DNA of 64,000 nucleotides from NCBI GenBank assembly GCA_947174665.1, contig CAMWJV010000001.1, forward strand, positions 34,242 through 98,241. Direction: 5' to 3'. This DNA is from an uncultured Lachnospiraceae bacterium. GTDB lineage: Bacteria > Bacillota > Clostridia > Lachnospirales > Lachnospiraceae. The first letter of the stretch is position 1. Each line of letters opens with the position of its first letter. Both the position numbers and the translations under genes were made by a program. Under the pieces are notes generated by a model. It ran no database searches and was not told where the DNA came from. It saw only the letters and a list, made by a program, of their open reading frames with translations. This document shows positions 46,782-55,464 of the stretch, piece after piece.

Positions 46782-46812
46782 AACGCCGCGGAACGGCAGG
46801 ATGGAGGCTGGA

Positions 46813-48030
46813 ATGGAGTATACGGAGCTGAAGCGGGAACTGTGCAGAAAGGTGCAGGAGAGGATGGGCTATATGAAGGAGATGTCTGACGAGGAGGTGG
46901 AGGAGACCATAGACGAAGTGCTTCTGGAGCAGGAAAATCTGGTGACATATCCGGTTGAACTGCGGTGGAAGCTGAAAAAGGAACTGTTTGACTCGCTGAG
47001 GAGACTGGATATCCTTCAGATTTTTGTGGAGGACAATTCAGTGACAGAGATCATGATTAACGGAACAGAGCACATTTTTATCGAGAGAAAAGGCAAGCTT
47101 CAGGAGCTGGATAAGGGCTTTGACTCGATAGAAAAGCTGCAGGATGTGATACAGCAGATTGTGGCAGGATGCAACCGGGTTGTGAATGAAGCGTCGCCGA
47201 TTGTGGATGCAAGGCTTCCGGATGGCTCCCGAGTCAATATTGTCATGAAGCCGGTGGCGTTGAACGGCCCGATTGTGACAATCCGGCGATTTCCGGACAA
47301 GCCCATCACAATGGACTGGCTTGTCAAAAATCAATCCATATCCGAGCAGGCGGCGTTGTTTCTGGAGACGCTGGTAAAAGCGGGATATAACATTTTTATC
47401 AGCGGTGGAACGGGAAGCGGCAAGACAACCTTTTTGAATGCGCTTTCCCAGTTTATCCCCCCTGATGAAAGGGTTATCACCATCGAAGACAGTGCGGAAC
47501 TTCAGCTGCTGGGCCTGCCGAATCTGGTGCGTCTTGAGACCAGAAACAGTAATGTAGAGGGATGTAAGGAGATCAGTATCCGGGAATTGATCCGCTCCTC
47601 TCTGAGAATGCGGCCGAATCGTATCGTGGTGGGGGAGGTCAGGGGAGCAGAGGCCATCGACATGCTGCAATGCCTGAATACAGGGCATGACGGCAGTATG
47701 TCTACAGGCCATGCCAACAGCGGAAAAGACATGCTGTCAAGGTTGGAAAACATGGTATTAATGGGGCTGGAACTGCCGCTGGCGGCAATTCGGCAGCAGA
47801 TTGCATCAGGGATAGACATTATTGTGCATCTCGGCAGACTGCGGGACAAATCGAGAAGAGTCCTTGAGATTACAGAAATTCTGGGCTATGAAAATAATGA
47901 AATCAGGCTGAATCCTCTGTTTGAATTTGAGGAGGAGGGAGAGGACAGTGAAAGGTGTATTATCGGGAGGCTTAATAAAAAAGGGACGCTCCTTCGGGAA
48001 AACAAGCTTAAAGCGGCAGGACTATCATAG
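46813..48030 (+). CDS. tadA: TadA/CpaF secretion ATPase
   Basis: A 405-residue type II/IV secretion ATPase. The N-terminal domain (IMINGTEHIFIERKGKL) precedes the core with Walker A FISGGTGSGKTTFLNAL (near 196-212), the Asp box TIEDSAELQL, Walker B RPNRIVVGEVRGAEA and the His box MSTGHANSGKD. It powers extension and retraction of Flp pili through the TadB/TadC platform. GGAGG at 46803-46807 fixes ATG 46813. It is followed by TadB, whose start lies inside its end. It is the best-preserved marker of the Tad locus in the window. Confidence 0.95.
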   Translation: MEYTELKRELCRKVQERMGYMKEMSDEEVEETIDEVLLEQENLVTYPVELRWKLKKELFDSLRRLDILQIFVEDNSVTEIMINGTEHIFIERKGKLQELDKGFDSIEKLQDVIQQIVAGCNRVVNEASPIVDARLPDGSRVNIVMKPVALNGPIVTIRRFPDKPITMDWLVKNQSISEQAALFLETLVKAGYNIFISGGTGSGKTTFLNALSQFIPPDERVITIEDSAELQLLGLPNLVRLETRNSNVEGCKEISIRELIRSSLRMRPNRIVVGEVRGAEAIDMLQCLNTGHDGSMSTGHANSGKDMLSRLENMVLMGLELPLAAIRQQIASGIDIIVHLGRLRDKSRRVLEITEILGYENNEIRLNPLFEFEEEGEDSERCIIGRLNKKGTLLRENKLKAAGLS

Positions 48031-48769
48031 TTACTGCTGGAGGCGATGGGAGTGGGCTGCCGCGGTGCTTACAGCAGCGGCAGTGACGGTGTTTGCAGCA
48101 TTTTTTTTCTATCGGAGTCTCTGGGCGATACTGCCGCTTTTGCCGGTAGGGGTGGCGTTCTTCCGCAAAATCCGGCGGGAAAAAGGTGAACATGAGAGAG
48201 AGGAGCTGAAGGAACAGTTCAGGGAATGTATTCTTGCAGTAGGGGCGCTGCTGGGGGCCGGCTATTCCGTAGAAAATGCCTTTTTGGAGTGCGAGCAGGA
48301 CATGGCGCTGATGTATGGAAAAGACGCTCTGATCTGCGGGGAACTCAGAATGGTGCGCAGGGGACTGAATATCAATGTTTCTCTGGAGGAACTGCTGACG
48401 GATCTCGGTGAAAGAAGCGGCTGTGAGGAGATGGTACAGTTTGCGGAGGTTTTCACGATTGCCAAAAGAAATGGGGGCAACCTGGCGGAAATCATCCGAA
48501 GCTCCGCGGAGCTGATAAGCAGAAAGGCGGAACTGAAGCGGGAGATTGAGACGCTCCTGAGCGGAAAGAAGATGGAGATGAGCATTATGAGACTTATGCC
48601 CTTTGCCATATTGGTATATATTGGCTCAGCAAATCCGGGATATTTTGATATTCTATACAGCGGTTTGTTCGGAAGACTTATTATGACCGGATGTCTTGGA
48701 GCTTATATGGGAGCTTATGCGCTGGGTGAGCTTGTGATAAGGAGGATGAAGAGAGAATGGAACTACTGA
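47948..48769 (+). CDS. tadB: TadB inner-membrane platform protein
   Basis: A 273-residue protein with one T2SSF (type II secretion F) domain. Two hydrophobic stretches (about 35-70) are followed by a cytosolic helical domain with FRECILAVGALLGAGYSVEN and the C-terminal helices (LIMTGCLGAYMGAYALGELV). The middle motif AKRNGGNLAEIIRSSAELIS is typical of TadB. It forms the platform with TadC. I take GTG 47948 as the start, inside the TadA gene, after GGAGGGAGAGG; a longer frame extends a little further upstream. TadC starts 13 bases before its stop. Confidence 0.85.
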   Translation: MKGVLSGGLIKKGRSFGKTSLKRQDYHSYCWRRWEWAAAVLTAAAVTVFAAFFFYRSLWAILPLLPVGVAFFRKIRREKGEHEREELKEQFRECILAVGALLGAGYSVENAFLECEQDMALMYGKDALICGELRMVRRGLNINVSLEELLTDLGERSGCEEMVQFAEVFTIAKRNGGNLAEIIRSSAELISRKAELKREIETLLSGKKMEMSIMRLMPFAILVYIGSANPGYFDILYSGLFGRLIMTGCLGAYMGAYALGELVIRRMKREWNY

Positions 48770-50103
48770 AAAAAGCGGCAATGTTTTTGTACAAGAAAGC
48801 CTTTATTCTGAAGCTTCCTGTCTTTCGCGGAAAACGCATTGAATCCGATCTGGCACTGCTGCATCCGGGAGAACGGGTGGAGTATGTAAAAACGGATTAC
48901 TATGTAAGAAAAATATCCATGTGCCTTGGGGTTCTGGCAGCAGAGGGATTTCTGGGGCTTTCGGCAACGATAAACGCAGATAGAAACGCGCTTGTGGAGG
49001 CGGGCGGCATCATACGCAGAGGAAGCTATGAGGAAGGGGAAAAGCGGGTGACGCTTGAGGCGGACAACGGAGAGGGAAAATTGCGTTTTGAGATTTCTGT
49101 TTGGCCCAGAACTTTGACTTCGGAGGAGACAGAAGAGCTGTCCGAGGCATTTTTCGAAAAACTGGAGTTTCTTATTCTGAACGGCAATGAAGACACCGGA
49201 CACATTACATCCGATTTGAGTCTTGAGGAGGAATATGAGGGATTTCCCTTTGAGGTGGAATGGGAGAGTGGCAGAGAGGTGATCCTGGACCGCAGCGGAA
49301 GGGTACGGGAGGTGAATGAGCCCGCACAGGTAAAGCTGCGCGCTACGTTAAAGTATCAGGATTTCAGCAAAACAGGGGAAATTGATGTCACGGTGGTTCC
49401 GGCTTGCCTGACAGCCGAGGAGCAGGATTACCTGGAAATGCAGGAATATCTTGTGGCAGAGGAGGCAGGCAGCCGGGGGGAGGAGGGGTGGAGCCTGCCG
49501 GGAGAGTGGAAGGGCAGGGAGATAAGCTGGAGCCTGGCCGCAGTAGATTACAGTCTTTTTATCTGGGCGGCCACTCCTGCCGTTGCAGTGCTGATTTATC
49601 TGTCCTCGGACAGGGACTTGCGAAAGAAACTGGAGAAAAAGCACAGCAGCCTGAGCCGGGAATACCCGGATCTGGTCCATAAACTTGCGCTTTATGTGGG
49701 CGCAGGGATGACGATTCGAGGAGCATTTCAAAAGATAGGGGGTGATTATGAGAAAAAGGTGCAAAAGGGGCAGGCGGTGAGGCCGGGGTGCGAAGAGGTA
49801 CTGTATACCTGCCGGGAGCTGCAGACGGGAGTGGCAGAAGGCGCTGCCTATGAGCATTTCGGGAGAAGAACCGGCCTGCGGGAGTACATAAGGCTCAGCA
49901 CACTCCTGGGGCAGAACCTGAAGCGGGGAAACAGCACACTTCTTGACCGTCTGCGGGAGGAGGCTGAGAAATCCCTGGAAGAGAGCCTGCTCAGGGCAAG
50001 AAAGCTGGGGGAAGAGGCAGGAACGAGGCTGCTGGTGCCCATGGTGCTGATGCTGGCCATTGTGATGGTGATGATCATGGTTCCGGCATTTGGAAACATG
50101 TAA
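48757..50103 (+). CDS. tadC: TadC-like platform protein with a large inserted exported domain
   Basis: A 448-residue protein, longer than the usual 280-320 of TadC. After a first helix near residues 52-72 comes a polar, beta-rich insertion (about 73-262) of roughly 190 residues, rich in Glu, with strands such as RVTLEADNGEGKLRFEISVW and VKLRATLKYQDFSKTGEID. A second helix lies at about 264-282, then a T2SSF domain (290-430, HKLALYVGAGMTIRGAFQKI) and a final hydrophobic end. By topology, the insertion would be outside the membrane. It might anchor the pilus base in the Gram-positive wall. Overlap with TadB supports co-production. Confidence 0.75.
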   Translation: MELLKKAAMFLYKKAFILKLPVFRGKRIESDLALLHPGERVEYVKTDYYVRKISMCLGVLAAEGFLGLSATINADRNALVEAGGIIRRGSYEEGEKRVTLEADNGEGKLRFEISVWPRTLTSEETEELSEAFFEKLEFLILNGNEDTGHITSDLSLEEEYEGFPFEVEWESGREVILDRSGRVREVNEPAQVKLRATLKYQDFSKTGEIDVTVVPACLTAEEQDYLEMQEYLVAEEAGSRGEEGWSLPGEWKGREISWSLAAVDYSLFIWAATPAVAVLIYLSSDRDLRKKLEKKHSSLSREYPDLVHKLALYVGAGMTIRGAFQKIGGDYEKKVQKGQAVRPGCEEVLYTCRELQTGVAEGAAYEHFGRRTGLREYIRLSTLLGQNLKRGNSTLLDRLREEAEKSLEESLLRARKLGEEAGTRLLVPMVLMLAIVMVMIMVPAFGNM

Positions 50104-50154: not shown

Positions 50155-50370
50155 ATGAAAAGAAATCAGGAAGTTTATATGGAAAGCAGAAACAGTGGGG
50201 AGTTGAAGAAATGGCGGGAATTTCTGCAGGAAGAGGATGGCATGGGAACAGTGGAGATCATTTTGATCATTGTGGTTCTCGTTGGGCTGGTTATCATTTT
50301 TAAGGACCAGATAACACAAATCGTCAACAACCTCTTCAGCAAGATTACCGCGCAGACAGGTAAGATATAG
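50155..50370 (+). CDS. flp: Flp-type IVb pilin
   Basis: A 71-residue prepilin. The polar leader ends in EEDG and is followed by MGTVEIILIIVVLVGLVIIF; cleavage after the glycine puts Glu at position 5, as in class IVb pilins, and leaves a long hydrophobic helix that packs in the fibre core. The mature protein is about 42 residues, a normal Flp size, and ends NLFSKITAQTGKI. AAGGAGG at 50138-50144 precedes the ATG. The gene ends one base before the next ATG. It is the likely major subunit of the Tad pilus. Confidence 0.9.
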   Translation: MKRNQEVYMESRNSGELKKWREFLQEEDGMGTVEIILIIVVLVGLVIIFKDQITQIVNNLFSKITAQTGKI

Positions 50371-51810
50371 ATGAAACGGGAAAATGGTTATCTGACAGTC
50401 TATCTTGCACTCTGTCTGACGCTGATCCTGTCCCTGTACCTGGCTCTGATAGACGGAGCCAGGCGGGGCGGAGCTGCCATGGAGGCGACCTGTGCTGCCG
50501 AGATGGGAATGCAGAATATTATGGCGGAATATCATCGCGGGCTTTTGAATCAGTTTAATCTGTTTGCCATTGATTCTTCTTACGGCACGGATGTATGCGG
50601 AAGAAAAAATACGGAAGCACATCTCATGGGATATCTGAAAAAGAATCTGAGTACGGACAGTGTTCTTGGAAAATATCTGTATCGGGATTTCCTGTGCCTT
50701 AGAGCAGATGATGCAGAACTGACGGGAGTGTCAGTTCTGACGGACGAGGGAGGAGCAGTGTTCCGCGGCATGGCAATAGAGGCGGTAAAAAATGACGTGG
50801 GAATGAATCTTCTGGATGAGATACAGGAATGGATGTCAGTGGTGGAAGTAAACGGATTAAGTGAAGTAAGTTATGATGAGGAAAGGAAGAGATTGGACGA
50901 GACTCTGGAGGAGTATGACGGCAAAGAGGTGGAGATTTCGGAGACGGAAACAATATGTTTGGAGGTGGAAAATCCGGCGGCACAGCTGAATGCAAAAAGG
51001 GGACTGGGAATTTTACATTTGGTGACGGAAAACACAGAAAGCCTTTCCGAAAAGGCTATAGACAGTACGATGCTGGTGGGATACCGCATGAAGCAGGGAA
51101 ATGTCAACAGTGGAAATATGAAGGTACAGTCGGTGGACAGCCTTTGGGACCGTATTTTATTTCAGGAATACCTGTTGCGGTATCTGGGGTGTTATGGGAA
51201 CGGAAAAGAAGACGGGGCGCTGGAGTATCAGATTGAGTATCTCGTTGCGGGAAAAAATTATGATACGGATAATTTACAGAGTGTGGCCAACAGGCTGTCC
51301 GCTCTGCGGGAGGCGGCCAATGTAATATATCTGCTCACGGATGCGGAAAAGAACATGGAAATTCATGAGGCAGCAATTCTTGCCTGCGGCTTTATTGCGC
51401 TGCCGGAGCTGATACCCATAGTGGAAGGTGTCATCCTGTTTGGCTGGGCGTATGCGGAGAGCGTATATGATGTGAAAACGTTGCTGGCCGGAGGGAAGGT
51501 TCCTCTCATAAAGGATAAGGACAGCTGGCATTATGCCCTGGAAAATGCTCTGTGGGGCAATACGGATGATGCGGCCGGAGAGGGGAGAGGCCTGACCTAT
51601 CAGGATTATCTGAGAATACTGATGATGCTGACAGACCTTGACACGCTGACAACCAGAGCCATGGACATGGCAGAGGCGGATATACGTCTGACCCCCGGCA
51701 ATGCTCATTTCCGACTGGATGCCTGTTATGCGGGGGTTGAGGCTGTTATGAGGATCAGCAGTTCCTTCGGATATAAATTTGAACTGAGCAGAAAAAGAGT
51801 TTATCAGTGA
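50371..51810 (+). CDS. DUF5702-like Tad-associated exported protein
   Basis: A 479-residue protein anchored by an N-terminal helix (NGYLTVYLALCLTLILSLYL, near 4-23) that has a pseudopilin-like start. Then a long exterior part follows, with the pattern GARRGGAAMEATCAAEMGMQNIMAEYHRGL that I associate with DUF5702, a family common in clostridial tad loci. A second hydrophobic helix lies near 338-360 (ILACGFIALPELIPIVEGVI). It may be the monoderm counterpart of TadG, a minor pilin or tip/adhesin. It begins directly at the stop of the Flp gene and is followed after 33 bases by the TadE-like gene. Confidence 0.7.
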   Translation: MKRENGYLTVYLALCLTLILSLYLALIDGARRGGAAMEATCAAEMGMQNIMAEYHRGLLNQFNLFAIDSSYGTDVCGRKNTEAHLMGYLKKNLSTDSVLGKYLYRDFLCLRADDAELTGVSVLTDEGGAVFRGMAIEAVKNDVGMNLLDEIQEWMSVVEVNGLSEVSYDEERKRLDETLEEYDGKEVEISETETICLEVENPAAQLNAKRGLGILHLVTENTESLSEKAIDSTMLVGYRMKQGNVNSGNMKVQSVDSLWDRILFQEYLLRYLGCYGNGKEDGALEYQIEYLVAGKNYDTDNLQSVANRLSALREAANVIYLLTDAEKNMEIHEAAILACGFIALPELIPIVEGVILFGWAYAESVYDVKTLLAGGKVPLIKDKDSWHYALENALWGNTDDAAGEGRGLTYQDYLRILMMLTDLDTLTTRAMDMAEADIRLTPGNAHFRLDACYAGVEAVMRISSSFGYKFELSRKRVYQ

Positions 51811-51843: not shown

Positions 51844-52749
51844 ATGGCTTTTTTATGGAAAAGAAAAGAGAAACCGAAAACAATTTCACAAAAACCTTCT
51901 TCCGTAAACTATGACAAACAAAGGGATTATGCCCGAAATTCCAAAAAAGTTTCCGTAAAAAAGTCATCACTGTTTCCCCCGTTTTGCAGGAGAGTTAAGG
52001 CGGGAATGACGGTGGAGGCAGCAGTTGTTCTGCCCTTATGCCTTTTGTTTCTTATGAATCTCGGATATGCTGTGGAAATCATACGGCTGCACAATAACCT
52101 GCAGTTTGCGCTGTGGGATGCGGGCAGCAGGATTGCCATATATGGCTGTGAACAGGGCGAGGACAGTATTTCTGTTCTTGCGACGGATTTTTATATCGGA
52201 AACAGGCTGCGGGACAGTGTGGGGGAGGATTATCTCAACAGTTCGCCGCTGGTGCGGGGGAGCAAGGGACTGCAGCTCTGGGAGACAGGATTGTCGGATA
52301 CGGGCAATGAGCTTGATATTAAGATTACCTATCAGGCGGGGCCATTGTCCGTCCTTGCGGGCTTTCAACCTTTTCGCATGACGAACCGCTGTTATGTCAG
52401 GCTGTGGAACGGATATGACGTTACCGCAGTATCAGAGGTGACCACCTATGTCTATGTAGCGGAAAACGGGGTGGTCTTTCACAGGGACAGAAACTGCACT
52501 CATTTACAGCTCTCAGTGCGCAGCATTGGCCGGGGAGAGCTGGAAGACCTGAGGAATCAGTGGGGGCAGAGGTACAGTGCCTGTGAAAAATGCGGAAAAG
52601 GAGAGCTGCCTGACACACTGTTCGTGACAGAAGAAGGACACTGCTATCATTATAGGGAGGATTGTTCCGGAATCAAGAGAACCGTGATATCTCTGACGCC
52701 GGAAGAGGCTGCGGATTATCCTCCCTGCAGCCGGTGTGGGGGGCGGTGA
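51844..52749 (+). CDS. TadE-like pseudopilin with two C-terminal metal-binding-type modules
   Basis: A 301-residue protein. A positively charged lead ends in AGMTVEAAVVLPLCLLFLMN (near 54-73), the TadE/TadF type prepilin-like signal, followed by a 130-residue extracellular part. Uniquely, the C-terminus holds two similar modules: VVFHRDRNCTHLQL with YSACEKCG, and HCYHYREDCSGIKR with YPPCSRCG. Each is F/Y-H-x3-C followed by C-x2-C, close to the Y-H-x-x-x-C with P-C-x-x-C motif of small zinc modules in secreted proteins. TadE proteins normally end without them. ATG 51844 is preferred over the GTG at 51841. Confidence 0.75.
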   Translation: MAFLWKRKEKPKTISQKPSSVNYDKQRDYARNSKKVSVKKSSLFPPFCRRVKAGMTVEAAVVLPLCLLFLMNLGYAVEIIRLHNNLQFALWDAGSRIAIYGCEQGEDSISVLATDFYIGNRLRDSVGEDYLNSSPLVRGSKGLQLWETGLSDTGNELDIKITYQAGPLSVLAGFQPFRMTNRCYVRLWNGYDVTAVSEVTTYVYVAENGVVFHRDRNCTHLQLSVRSIGRGELEDLRNQWGQRYSACEKCGKGELPDTLFVTEEGHCYHYREDCSGIKRTVISLTPEEAADYPPCSRCGGR

Positions 52750-52767
52750 AAATAATGGAGGTTGAAT

Positions 52768-53202
52768 ATGTGGAAGGAAGTGCTGACAGCCGTATGGCTG
52801 GTGCCTATGAGTATTATGGATACAAGGAGTAAAAGGGTGCCTGTGTGGATGCTGTGGATTGGATCTGCCGCTGCCATCGGCGTGCTGCTGTACGATGGGA
52901 TAAACGGCGGGCTGAACGGATGGCAGGAATGCAGGGCGCTGTTGCCGGGCGTAATATTGCTGGCAGTTGCATATGCCACCGGAAAAGCAGGCCCGGCTGA
53001 CGGAGTTATCCTGATGCTGCTTGGCGTCTTTATGGGGTATGAAGACTGCGTGGCAGCATCTCTCGGAGGACTTTTTCTGATTGCCCTGTTTTCGGTAGTT
53101 TTGCTGACGCTGCGCAGAGTAAAGAGGGATACAAGGATTCCCTTTGTTCCTTTTCTGGCGGTAGGCTGGTTGATTGTGACCTGCGGAAGGTGGGGTACAT
53201 AA
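52768..53202 (+). CDS. Second A24-type prepilin peptidase
   Basis: A 144-residue membrane protein with about four or five helices. The aspartate pair sits in VPMSIMDTRSKRVPVWML (first) and KAGPADGVILMLLGVFMGY (second). The second motif is G-P-A-D rather than the usual GxGD, so activity is plausible but not certain. It is short, like TadV. Having two A24 members in one tad locus is unusual; this one may process the TadE-like pseudopilins next to it. GGAGG at 52757-52761 fixes ATG 52768. The stop overlaps the start of the following TadE-like gene (TAATG). Confidence 0.7.
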   Translation: MWKEVLTAVWLVPMSIMDTRSKRVPVWMLWIGSAAAIGVLLYDGINGGLNGWQECRALLPGVILLAVAYATGKAGPADGVILMLLGVFMGYEDCVAASLGGLFLIALFSVVLLTLRRVKRDTRIPFVPFLAVGWLIVTCGRWGT

Positions 53203-53669
53203 TGAAGAGAGATATTTCATTGAAGGAAAACACATCATTAAGGAAAAACGCTTACTTTACGGTGGAGGCGGCATTGGTTCTGCCTTTAGTCATAGGGGCG
53301 CTGATTTTCACTGTTTTTCAGTTTATCTTTCAGTACGACAGATGCCTGCTGGAACAGGATATAAATATGCTGGCAGTCCGGGCGGCAACAGCGACAGCAG
53401 AAAGCAGTGAGGCGCTGGAAGAAATTATTCGGAAGAAGGCGTCGGAAGTATTTATGGACAAGTACGCTGCCTGGACAATGAGCGATCTGCAGATTGCGGT
53501 TAAGGGCAACAGGGTAAGCGTAAGAGGCGGGGGATATCTGACACTGCCGCTGCCGGAATGGAACTTTTTTCGAGAAGAAAACGAGTGGGGAGCGCGGACG
53601 CTCAGGGAGACACTGCGCATTTCTCCGGCAGATCATATCAGGTTATATCGAAAAATCAAAGACGATTGA
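53202..53669 (+). CDS. TadE-like minor pseudopilin
   Basis: A 155-residue protein with a polar, basic lead and then AYFTVEAALVLPLVIGALIF (near 19-38), the TadE/TadF signal helix with Glu at the conserved position. The outer part is small and helical (LEQDINMLAVRAATATAESS). It probably caps or primes the Flp pilus, as TadE and TadF do. ATG 53202 overlaps the stop of the second A24 peptidase gene (TAATG). It is followed by the FHA gene after 20 bases. The pair TadE-like/TadE-like with a peptidase between them fits the order TadE-TadF seen elsewhere. Confidence 0.75.
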   Translation: MKRDISLKENTSLRKNAYFTVEAALVLPLVIGALIFTVFQFIFQYDRCLLEQDINMLAVRAATATAESSEALEEIIRKKASEVFMDKYAAWTMSDLQIAVKGNRVSVRGGGYLTLPLPEWNFFREENEWGARTLRETLRISPADHIRLYRKIKDD

Positions 53670-53689
53670 AAATGAGGAGGAGAATAAAG

Positions 53690-54793
53690 GTGCAGACAGA
53701 ATTTGTGAGAAGCCTTAACTGCAACTATGAAAGAATTCTTTTGGAGGAAAAACCGGAGGAAAAGAGATACCAATATTGTATACTGAACAGAGGAGGTATC
53801 AGAGGACTGCTTCCCTGCAGTCTTCGTTATATTAACGGGTCGGCCTATCTGTACTACAATATATCGTCAAAGCAGAATATAAAACAACTGTTCGGAGGGC
53901 GCTGCATTACCAGAGCATGGATAACGGATTTTATGTGGAGTTTCCGACAGATAGAACAGGAGCTGGGAAGGTTTCTTCTGGACAGAAAAAATATCCTTTT
54001 GTATCCGGAGCAGATTTATCAGGATTTGGAGAGCAATGTGTTTTCCTTTCTGTACATTCCTTATCATGCGGGTGAAAACGGGTTTAAGGAGCTGCTGGAG
54101 TTTTGGGTGGAACAGATTGATTATAATGATGAGGCGCTGACCGCCTGTGTTTATCAGATGTATGAGCAATATGAGAGAAACGGAGACGTCTATCTGCAGA
54201 CAAAAATCTTTGAGGACGCGGAGAGGCTGGAGAATGCGGGCAGGCCGGAGCAATCTGAAAAAGCGGCGGAATCGGCACCTCACACAGAGGCATCTGCCCC
54301 AAATACGGAAGGGGAAACAGAGGCAGAAAGAAAAAAACATTTCTTTGGAATTTTTATGTCAAAGAAAAAGGAGCGGGAAATTCGGGAAAACTATCGTCAG
54401 AACATGCAGGAGAGCATGCAGGGATATGCCGTGGCGGAGGAGACGGTATACGGGGAGGAATACGGAAAGACAATTTATATTGAAGGCTCAGGGGAACCGG
54501 TAAAGACAAAAAGAGAGGTCTGCACTCCGGAGGGCAGGGTCCTGGCGGTGATTGACAGACCGATCACCACTATCGGGAAAAGAAAGGAAGAGGCGGATAT
54601 AGTATTGGAAGACATGTCGGTCAGCAGACTTCATGCGAGAATTGTAAAAGAGAAAGAGAAGTATTACATTGAGGATTTGAATTCCACCAACGGCACATTT
54701 AAGAACGGGCTTCGGCTTCAGCCATATGAGAGGCGCGAACTGGAACAGGAGGATGAGATTAAGACGGGAAGAGTCATTATGGTTTTCAGATAG
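53690..54793 (+). CDS. DUF6382-FHA domain protein of the Tad locus
   Basis: This 367-residue cytosolic protein has an N-terminal part (residues 1-165, VRSLNCNYERILLEEKPEEK, then RYQYCILNRGGIRGLLPCSL) that I match to DUF6382, a domain found with FHA in clostridial tad loci. A charged linker follows. The C-terminal FHA domain (about 280-365) has IGKRKEEADIVLEDMSVSRL HAR and LNSTNGTFKNG, the phosphothreonine-binding loops, both intact. It suggests Ser/Thr phosphorylation controls pilus assembly, although no kinase is in the window. GTG 53690 follows GAGGAGGAG; an ATG 18 bases earlier has no site. Confidence 0.8.
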   Translation: MQTEFVRSLNCNYERILLEEKPEEKRYQYCILNRGGIRGLLPCSLRYINGSAYLYYNISSKQNIKQLFGGRCITRAWITDFMWSFRQIEQELGRFLLDRKNILLYPEQIYQDLESNVFSFLYIPYHAGENGFKELLEFWVEQIDYNDEALTACVYQMYEQYERNGDVYLQTKIFEDAERLENAGRPEQSEKAAESAPHTEASAPNTEGETEAERKKHFFGIFMSKKKEREIRENYRQNMQESMQGYAVAEETVYGEEYGKTIYIEGSGEPVKTKREVCTPEGRVLAVIDRPITTIGKRKEEADIVLEDMSVSRLHARIVKEKEKYYIEDLNSTNGTFKNGLRLQPYERRELEQEDEIKTGRVIMVFR

Positions 54794-54870: not shown

Positions 54871-55464
54871 TTGAGCAGATGGAAGGAATTACCGATTGTC
54901 AGCGGGACCCTGGTTGTTGTCAATATTGTGGTATACATTCTGTGCATGTTTATCGGCAGCCGCCTGTACAGGCTGGGAAATCTGAATGCCGCCGATGTGC
55001 TGATAAACCGGGAGTATGGCCGTATTTTATGGGCGATGTTTCTGCACAGCGGGGTTTCTCATATTTTTAACAACATGTTGATACTTTTCTTCATGGGGGC
55101 TATGATAGAAAAAGAGATAGGACATATCTGTTACGCTCTGCTGTATTTTCTTTCAGGGATAGGCGGAAACCTGGTATCGCTTTATTTTAAGGCGATAAAT
55201 TATGACATGTCTGCGTCTATCGGAGCAAGCGGAGCGGTGTTTGGACTGGACGGTGTTCTGCTGGCTATGGTGCTGTTGTCCGGCAGAAAAATGGAGACTG
55301 TGACGCCAACCCGGGTTATAGCAATGATTCTGCTTTCGTTATATAACGGTTTCAGTGTGGATAATATTGACAATGCGGCTCATGTGGGCGGTCTGGTGAC
55401 CGGATTTCTGGGCGGGTGTGTTGTATGCGCTTTGCAGCGGGCAAGACACAGGAGACAGCAGTAG
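54871..55464 (+). CDS. Rhomboid-family intramembrane serine protease
   Basis: A 197-residue protein with six helices. The catalytic serine is S120 in IGASGAVFG and the histidine is H171 in NAAHVGGLVTGFLGG. The upstream motif HSGVSHIFNNMLILFFMG is the conserved HxxxxHxxxN block. Rhomboids cleave membrane-anchored substrates in the bilayer. Its place directly after the Tad genes suggests that a TadE-like or DUF5702-like protein could be the substrate, but this is inference. Start TTG 54871 follows GAGGTG by about eight bases. Confidence 0.9.
   Translation: MSRWKELPIVSGTLVVVNIVVYILCMFIGSRLYRLGNLNAADVLINREYGRILWAMFLHSGVSHIFNNMLILFFMGAMIEKEIGHICYALLYFLSGIGGNLVSLYFKAINYDMSASIGASGAVFGLDGVLLAMVLLSGRKMETVTPTRVIAMILLSLYNGFSVDNIDNAAHVGGLVTGFLGGCVVCALQRARHRRQQ

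Follow-up and report, generated by a model that had tools for sequence, protein, structure and literature searches.

Many gut Clostridia have Tad pili. The TadE/TadF minor pilins (PF07811) have a class-III prepilin signal with a glutamate at position +5, a long N-terminal helix and a short body, and are encoded in a Tad operon together with TadV. A prepilin site of the form G/XXXXE[FS] is available for comparison (PMC4322843). In Micrococcus luteus, transformation requires Flp pili; TadE/F were not detected when pili were sheared off, and the pilus base has been favored as their place of action (PMC4322843). In Myxococcus, Tad tips of TadEFG-like minor pilins with variable exposed domains have been shown genetically and modelled (PMC12075869).

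The protein described here shares this signal, helix, body and operon setting with the TadE/TadF minor pilins and differs from them by about 100 additional residues that carry two HCCC modules. It is likewise comparable to the minor pilins of the Myxococcus xanthus Kil Tips and of TadEFG tips, which also bear an added exposed domain for which a part in functionalising the tip has been proposed; those tips differ in that the domains are other ones and the organism is a Gram-negative predator, and zinc modules are not described in the accessible part of that report (PMC12075869). The tandem HCCC tail is uncatalogued in Pfam and NCBIfam. A literature search for this TadE tail found no description.

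The gene lies in a 64,000-nucleotide stretch of DNA (the window). Among named relatives, those closest to the source genome are Acetatifactor and further metagenome-assembled Lachnospiraceae genomes of gut origin. The gene is surrounded by a complete Tad operon (TadA, TadB, TadC, Flp pilin and TadV), laid out as follows in window positions:

46801-48030, forward strand: TadA ATPase (PF00437)
47921-48769, forward strand: TadB platform protein (PF00482)
48757-50103, forward strand: TadC platform protein (PF00482)
50155-50370, forward strand: Flp1-like major pilin (PF16982, E 2.9e-25)
50371-51810, forward strand: DUF5702 protein, a putative TadG-like partner minor pilin (PF18960, E 9.9e-85)
51844-52749, forward strand: TadE-like minor pilin with tandem modules, 301 amino acids (open reading frame; orthologues in same-genus genomes)
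52762-53202, forward strand: TadV-type prepilin peptidase (PF01478, E 9.9e-5, just under the curated cut-off)
53190-53669, forward strand: second TadE-like minor pilin, tailless (PF07811, E 0.0058, under the cut-off)
53558-54793, forward strand: DUF6382-FHA operon protein (PF19909, PF00498)

The arrangement is conserved. The gene is found in 69 of the 73 same-genus genomes, and its absence from the other four is unsure since these are 83-84% complete. Among 70 loci, DUF5702 adjoins the gene in 69, and TadV (68), DUF6382-FHA (67) and the second TadE (65) are nearly as constant as neighbors; the outer flanking genes are absent only where the locus is one of the shorter ones or, in a few cases, has been rearranged. 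Two further observations concern the surroundings. The TadC-like protein has an aBig_2 domain (atrophied bacterial Ig; PF20578, E 1.5e-9) N-terminal to T2SSF, which is unusual on a platform protein. A gene for a rhomboid-like membrane protein (54871-55464) follows the operon, as it does in at least 26 related loci.

The window protein itself gives no match to PF07811. Matches at E <= 0.01 are found in 19 of 60 family members (best 2.3e-7), and a tandem-module relative from another family, L079, reaches 31.2 bits, above the cut-off of 22.9. At the signal, A/G-[GS]-M-T-V-E is present in all 65 orthologues (A-G-M-T-V-E in the window copy), with an invariant Glu58 and a hydrophobic helix behind it, as in TadE/F minor pilins. 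The prepilin is likely to be cleaved between residues 53 and 54, which would place Glu58 at +5. The initial annotation had called the protein a TadE-like pseudopilin, and the matches of its relatives, the signal and the complete operon support this: the product of 51844-52749 is best taken as a TadE/F-type minor pilin of a Clostridial Tad (type IVc) pilus. The annotation also held that TadE proteins usually lack a tail of this kind. This is true of ordinary Bacillota TadE, the module being absent from all 30 of the best PF07811 loci of 120 Bacillota genomes, but not of this Clostridial operon slot, where the tail is the rule.

The reading frame starts at ATG 51844 (GTG 51841 is an in-frame alternative), and the protein is divided as follows:

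52000-52146, forward strand: class-III prepilin signal and N-terminal helix, residues 53-101 (ortholog alignment, AlphaFold2 model)
52147-52437, forward strand: pilin body, residues 102-198, with helices, three beta strands and a low-confidence linker at about 190-200 (AlphaFold2)
52450-52596, forward strand: module M1, residues 203-251, with ligands H213 (52480), C218 (52495), C247 (52582) and C250 (52591) (ligands invariant; tail model)
52621-52740, forward strand: module M2, residues 260-299, with ligands H269 (52648), C274 (52663), C295 (52726) and C298 (52735) (ligands invariant)

M1 reads VYVAENGVVFHRDRNC...YSACEKC and M2 reads LFVTEEGHCYHYREDC...YPPCSRC, so that the pattern [FY]H-x4-C ... 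C-x2-C is found twice in the tail. The two copies had been noticed earlier with a spacing of H-x3-C; the modules are there, but the spacing is x4, and H-x3-C does exist in distant relatives (e.g., L070). Aligned with each other, as had been proposed, M1 and M2 are 27% identical (BLASTP E 2e-6, for a single comparison). The tandem pattern was obtained in 0 of 200,000 shuffles of the tail itself, and even the single pattern occurs in the six frames of the window at these two places only. In the window's own genome, the module is present only in this protein. Scans of the protein, the tail and the single modules against Pfam and NCBIfam gave nothing usable for the tail; matches to HVO_0649 and copper-fist models were far below cut-off and were rejected. 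Each module is most likely a fold around one metal ion held by one histidine and three cysteines, and the metal is most likely zinc. Judged from sequence, it is near certain that these predicted zinc-type modules sit on a Tad minor pilin.

The ligands stand out in the conservation pattern. All eight are invariant in the 65 extracted same-genus sequences (the window's own among them), whereas the other cysteines are not: Cys 48, 66, 102 and 183 vary, and Cys267 is replaced by another residue in most orthologues. L066-L070, five relatives that belong to other families of the order, likewise keep both modules with their eight ligands, and both are intact in 79 of the 80 named loci of the genome collection, a set that overlaps with the same-genus orthologues. 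In the remaining locus, L160, the copy lies close to the end of a contig and its frame breaks ahead of the modules. Loss of the cysteine pattern in orthologues, which had been named as the observation that would count against the modules, was thus not seen. Basic residues of M2 that are not ligands are conserved as well: R279 in 65 of 65, R297 in 60 and K278 in 53. On average, the tail is 51% identical to the window copy and the body 35%. In the two closest usable orthologues (L003 and L157), the tail has a dN/dS of 0.03-0.05, against 0.09-0.10 in the body; in the more distant L004 and L005, where synonymous sites are saturated, the contrast is gone or not computable. The duplication is older than the genus, since M1 copies are closer to other M1 copies (46% identity) than to M2 copies (32%).

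AlphaFold2 predicts a small beta structure for the tail alone (mean pLDDT 91; the model holds no metal). In the model of the full protein (mean pLDDT 84), a long helix (57-100), three body strands and a confident tail are seen, and the linker between body and tail (about 190-200) is of low confidence. Foldseek searches of the PDB with the tail and with the full model returned nothing at E <= 0.001, and neither sequence nor fold searches of the PDB found a solved relative. With phmmer, the tail also hit PDB entries of designed beta-trefoils; these were repeated short matches and were rejected as chance.

The module is not confined to pilins. In other Clostridia and Bacillota it caps secreted SNase nucleases and ComEC-type proteins of the metallo-beta-lactamase fold; further carriers are Cu_amine_oxidN1 (stalk) proteins, M78 peptidase-like proteins, one DUF4236 protein and one ChW protein. 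The proposed likeness to the ends of secreted nucleases proved real: a profile made only from nuclease and metallo-beta-lactamase-fold tails aligns with M2 over the module length (hhalign 98.4%, E 1e-14), with all four ligands matched, which places the tail in the YH-C-CxxC module family. (This profile, A7, took the place of a comparison of profiles A4 and A2, which was partly circular in that A2 contains TadE modules.) Length, ligand order and the flanking VYxTxxGxxYH...C...A...Y-P-C-x-x-C are shared. The TadE tail differs from the nuclease and metallo-beta-lactamase tails in being tandem rather than single, in having H-x4-C instead of H-x3-C, in an RNxxGxxY insertion in M1 and in being less basic on average. 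No Pfam model dedicated to the C-terminal YH-x3-C...C-x2-C module of the SNase and metallo-beta-lactamase proteins was found here.

A second set of TadE-like proteins has a single H-x3-C module (L109, L115, L270, L275, L280, L284, L285, L286 and L294). In five single-module loci from distant Clostridia (L297-L301), the gene occupies the same slot: it follows Flp1 and, as far as the locus includes them, precedes TadV and/or DUF6382-FHA, and DUF5702 was recognized in three of the five; a sixth locus that was checked, L302, has no recognizable Tad neighbor. A module, single or tandem, is thus typical of this Clostridial minor pilin slot, and its doubling may be confined to the order to which the window belongs. 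In L125 and L126, single-module TadE-like proteins of other Bacillota, the final C-x2-C is replaced by H-x-G-C, a changed or degenerate metal site.

A more remote relation leads to the zinc domain of Ada (Ada_Zn_binding, PF02805; PDB 1adn, 1wpk, 1u8b, 1zgw), in which Cys38 is the first zinc ligand and takes up the methyl group (PMC10814553). A broad profile of the module, run against the PDB, found Ada N-domain entries first, at a marginal E of 0.016 and over the second half only. The link is closer through a bridging group (L137-L148, with KFHxPxC and PCKVCxP), which passes the PF02805 cut-off though its first ligand is His. Its alignments run the full length both with Ada (98.3%, E 2e-14) and with the module (98.2%, E 3e-14, with a module profile that includes a few TadE modules). 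Direct comparison of the tandem TadE tail with Ada is weak (50%, over the last 10 columns only); the window protein does not match PF02805, and only 2 of 60 relatives do at E <= 0.01. Through the bridging group, the module family is distantly related to the zinc domain of Ada. The two have in common the second half (xxEAxxxGYxPCxxCxP) and two ligand pairs of like spacing. The tail lacks the four-Cys ligand set with a methyl-accepting Cys38: every orthologue has His as the first ligand, and the context is not one of DNA repair. As the nucleophilic Cys of Ada is His here, repair of methylated DNA by the tail is not expected. L137-L148 are in themselves a second uncharacterised group of H-C-C-C modules, intermediate between the zinc domain of Ada and the module of the secreted proteins. 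With its first half, the module profile also weakly matched the C-terminal part of IscB in PDB entries (7utn and others; residues 468-488, E about 0.7), which is probably due to chance.

What might such a tail do? On balance, we favor the view that the zinc-braced module pair is a binding head at the tip of the Tad pilus, with DNA or another polyanion as its likely ligand. The protein would be exported and then cleaved by the neighboring TadV-type peptidase, as the conserved signal and the operon suggest; it would be assembled at the Flp1 pilus tip along with the DUF5702 protein and the tailless TadE, by analogy to tips of the TadEFG type; and the zinc-braced pair would be displayed there as a ligand-binding head. 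By the same analogy, display of the tail at the tip is likely; the M. luteus result, in which TadE/F were not seen in sheared pili and the base was favored, speaks against it (PMC4322843). The nature of the ligand, DNA or another polyanion, is the weakest step. It is suggested by the module capping secreted nucleases and ComEC-type proteins and by its distant relation to the DNA-binding Ada. DNA alone is a tentative candidate, one on which we would not wager at even terms. The conservation of R279, R297 and K278 also speaks for DNA, as do ComEC in 72 of the 73 same-genus genomes, the lack of a recognizable N_methyl-type pilin in the window's genome and 36 others, and Flp-dependent transformation in M. 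luteus (PMC4322843). Net charge, taken as a sign of DNA binding, gives no clear support: the modules are near neutral rather than strongly basic (M1 +1 and M2 -3 in the window copy; genus means +0.4 and +2.3). Some of the module-bearing partner proteins are without any DNA role, and the weakness of the direct link to Ada and the empty Foldseek searches also count against the favored view.

The same facts can be read otherwise. The modules could be purely structural braces that stabilise a short exposed domain, zinc standing in for disulfides in an anaerobe that forms few of these on exported proteins; adhesion would then fall to other parts of the pilus or to variable loops of the modules, with no special affinity for DNA. 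That conservation is highest at the ligands, with variation at most other surface positions, that net charge ranges from -6 to +7 between orthologues and that the module is found on many unrelated exported proteins all agree with bracing. It explains less well why the non-ligand basic residues are conserved too and why the module is so strikingly linked to partners acting on DNA (SNase, ComEC-type), and we regard it as rather unlikely, if still deserving of attention. Less probable again is a role in assembly, in which the modules contact DUF5702 and the second TadE and hold a tip or base complex together without facing outward. The near-constant DUF5702 neighbor, the single-module relatives in the same slot between DUF5702 and TadV, and the base position favored for TadE/F in Micrococcus luteus (PMC4322843) fit such a role; the C-terminal module on enzymes without a pilus partner does not, nor does the low-confidence linker between body and tail, which in the AlphaFold2 model looks as it might for an independent head.

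That the cysteine pattern is due to chance or to a mis-called frame is hardly credible. The want of a Pfam or NCBIfam match to the tail is the one point found in its favor, and it is set against ligands that are invariant over orthologues down to about 20-30% identity, a dN/dS well under 1 and the failure of every one of the shuffles to produce the tandem pattern.

If the tail is a binding head at the pilus tip, the Tad pilus might itself be a DNA catcher: the zinc head at the tip would bind extracellular DNA and retraction would hand it to ComEC, replacing a missing Com pilus. We consider this extension improbable. It draws on the presence of ComEC, on the Com pilin not being recognized and on the need for Flp pili in M. 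luteus. ComEC is present in 72 of the 73 same-genus genomes, the window's included, which makes it near-universal and too general to discriminate. An N_methyl-type (type IVa/Com) pilin was not recognizable in the window's genome (83% complete) or in 36 others of the 73.

In closing, a predicted zinc module, uncatalogued and strictly conserved, marks one specific minor pilin slot and is common to secreted nucleases and ComEC-type proteins. For annotators, what is missing is a domain model that unites the TadE tails, the tails of secreted nucleases and the Ada zinc domain. Small and expressible, the tail offers a handle on the question of what the Tad pilus binds, and a direct way of asking if Lachnospiraceae use Tad pili for DNA uptake.
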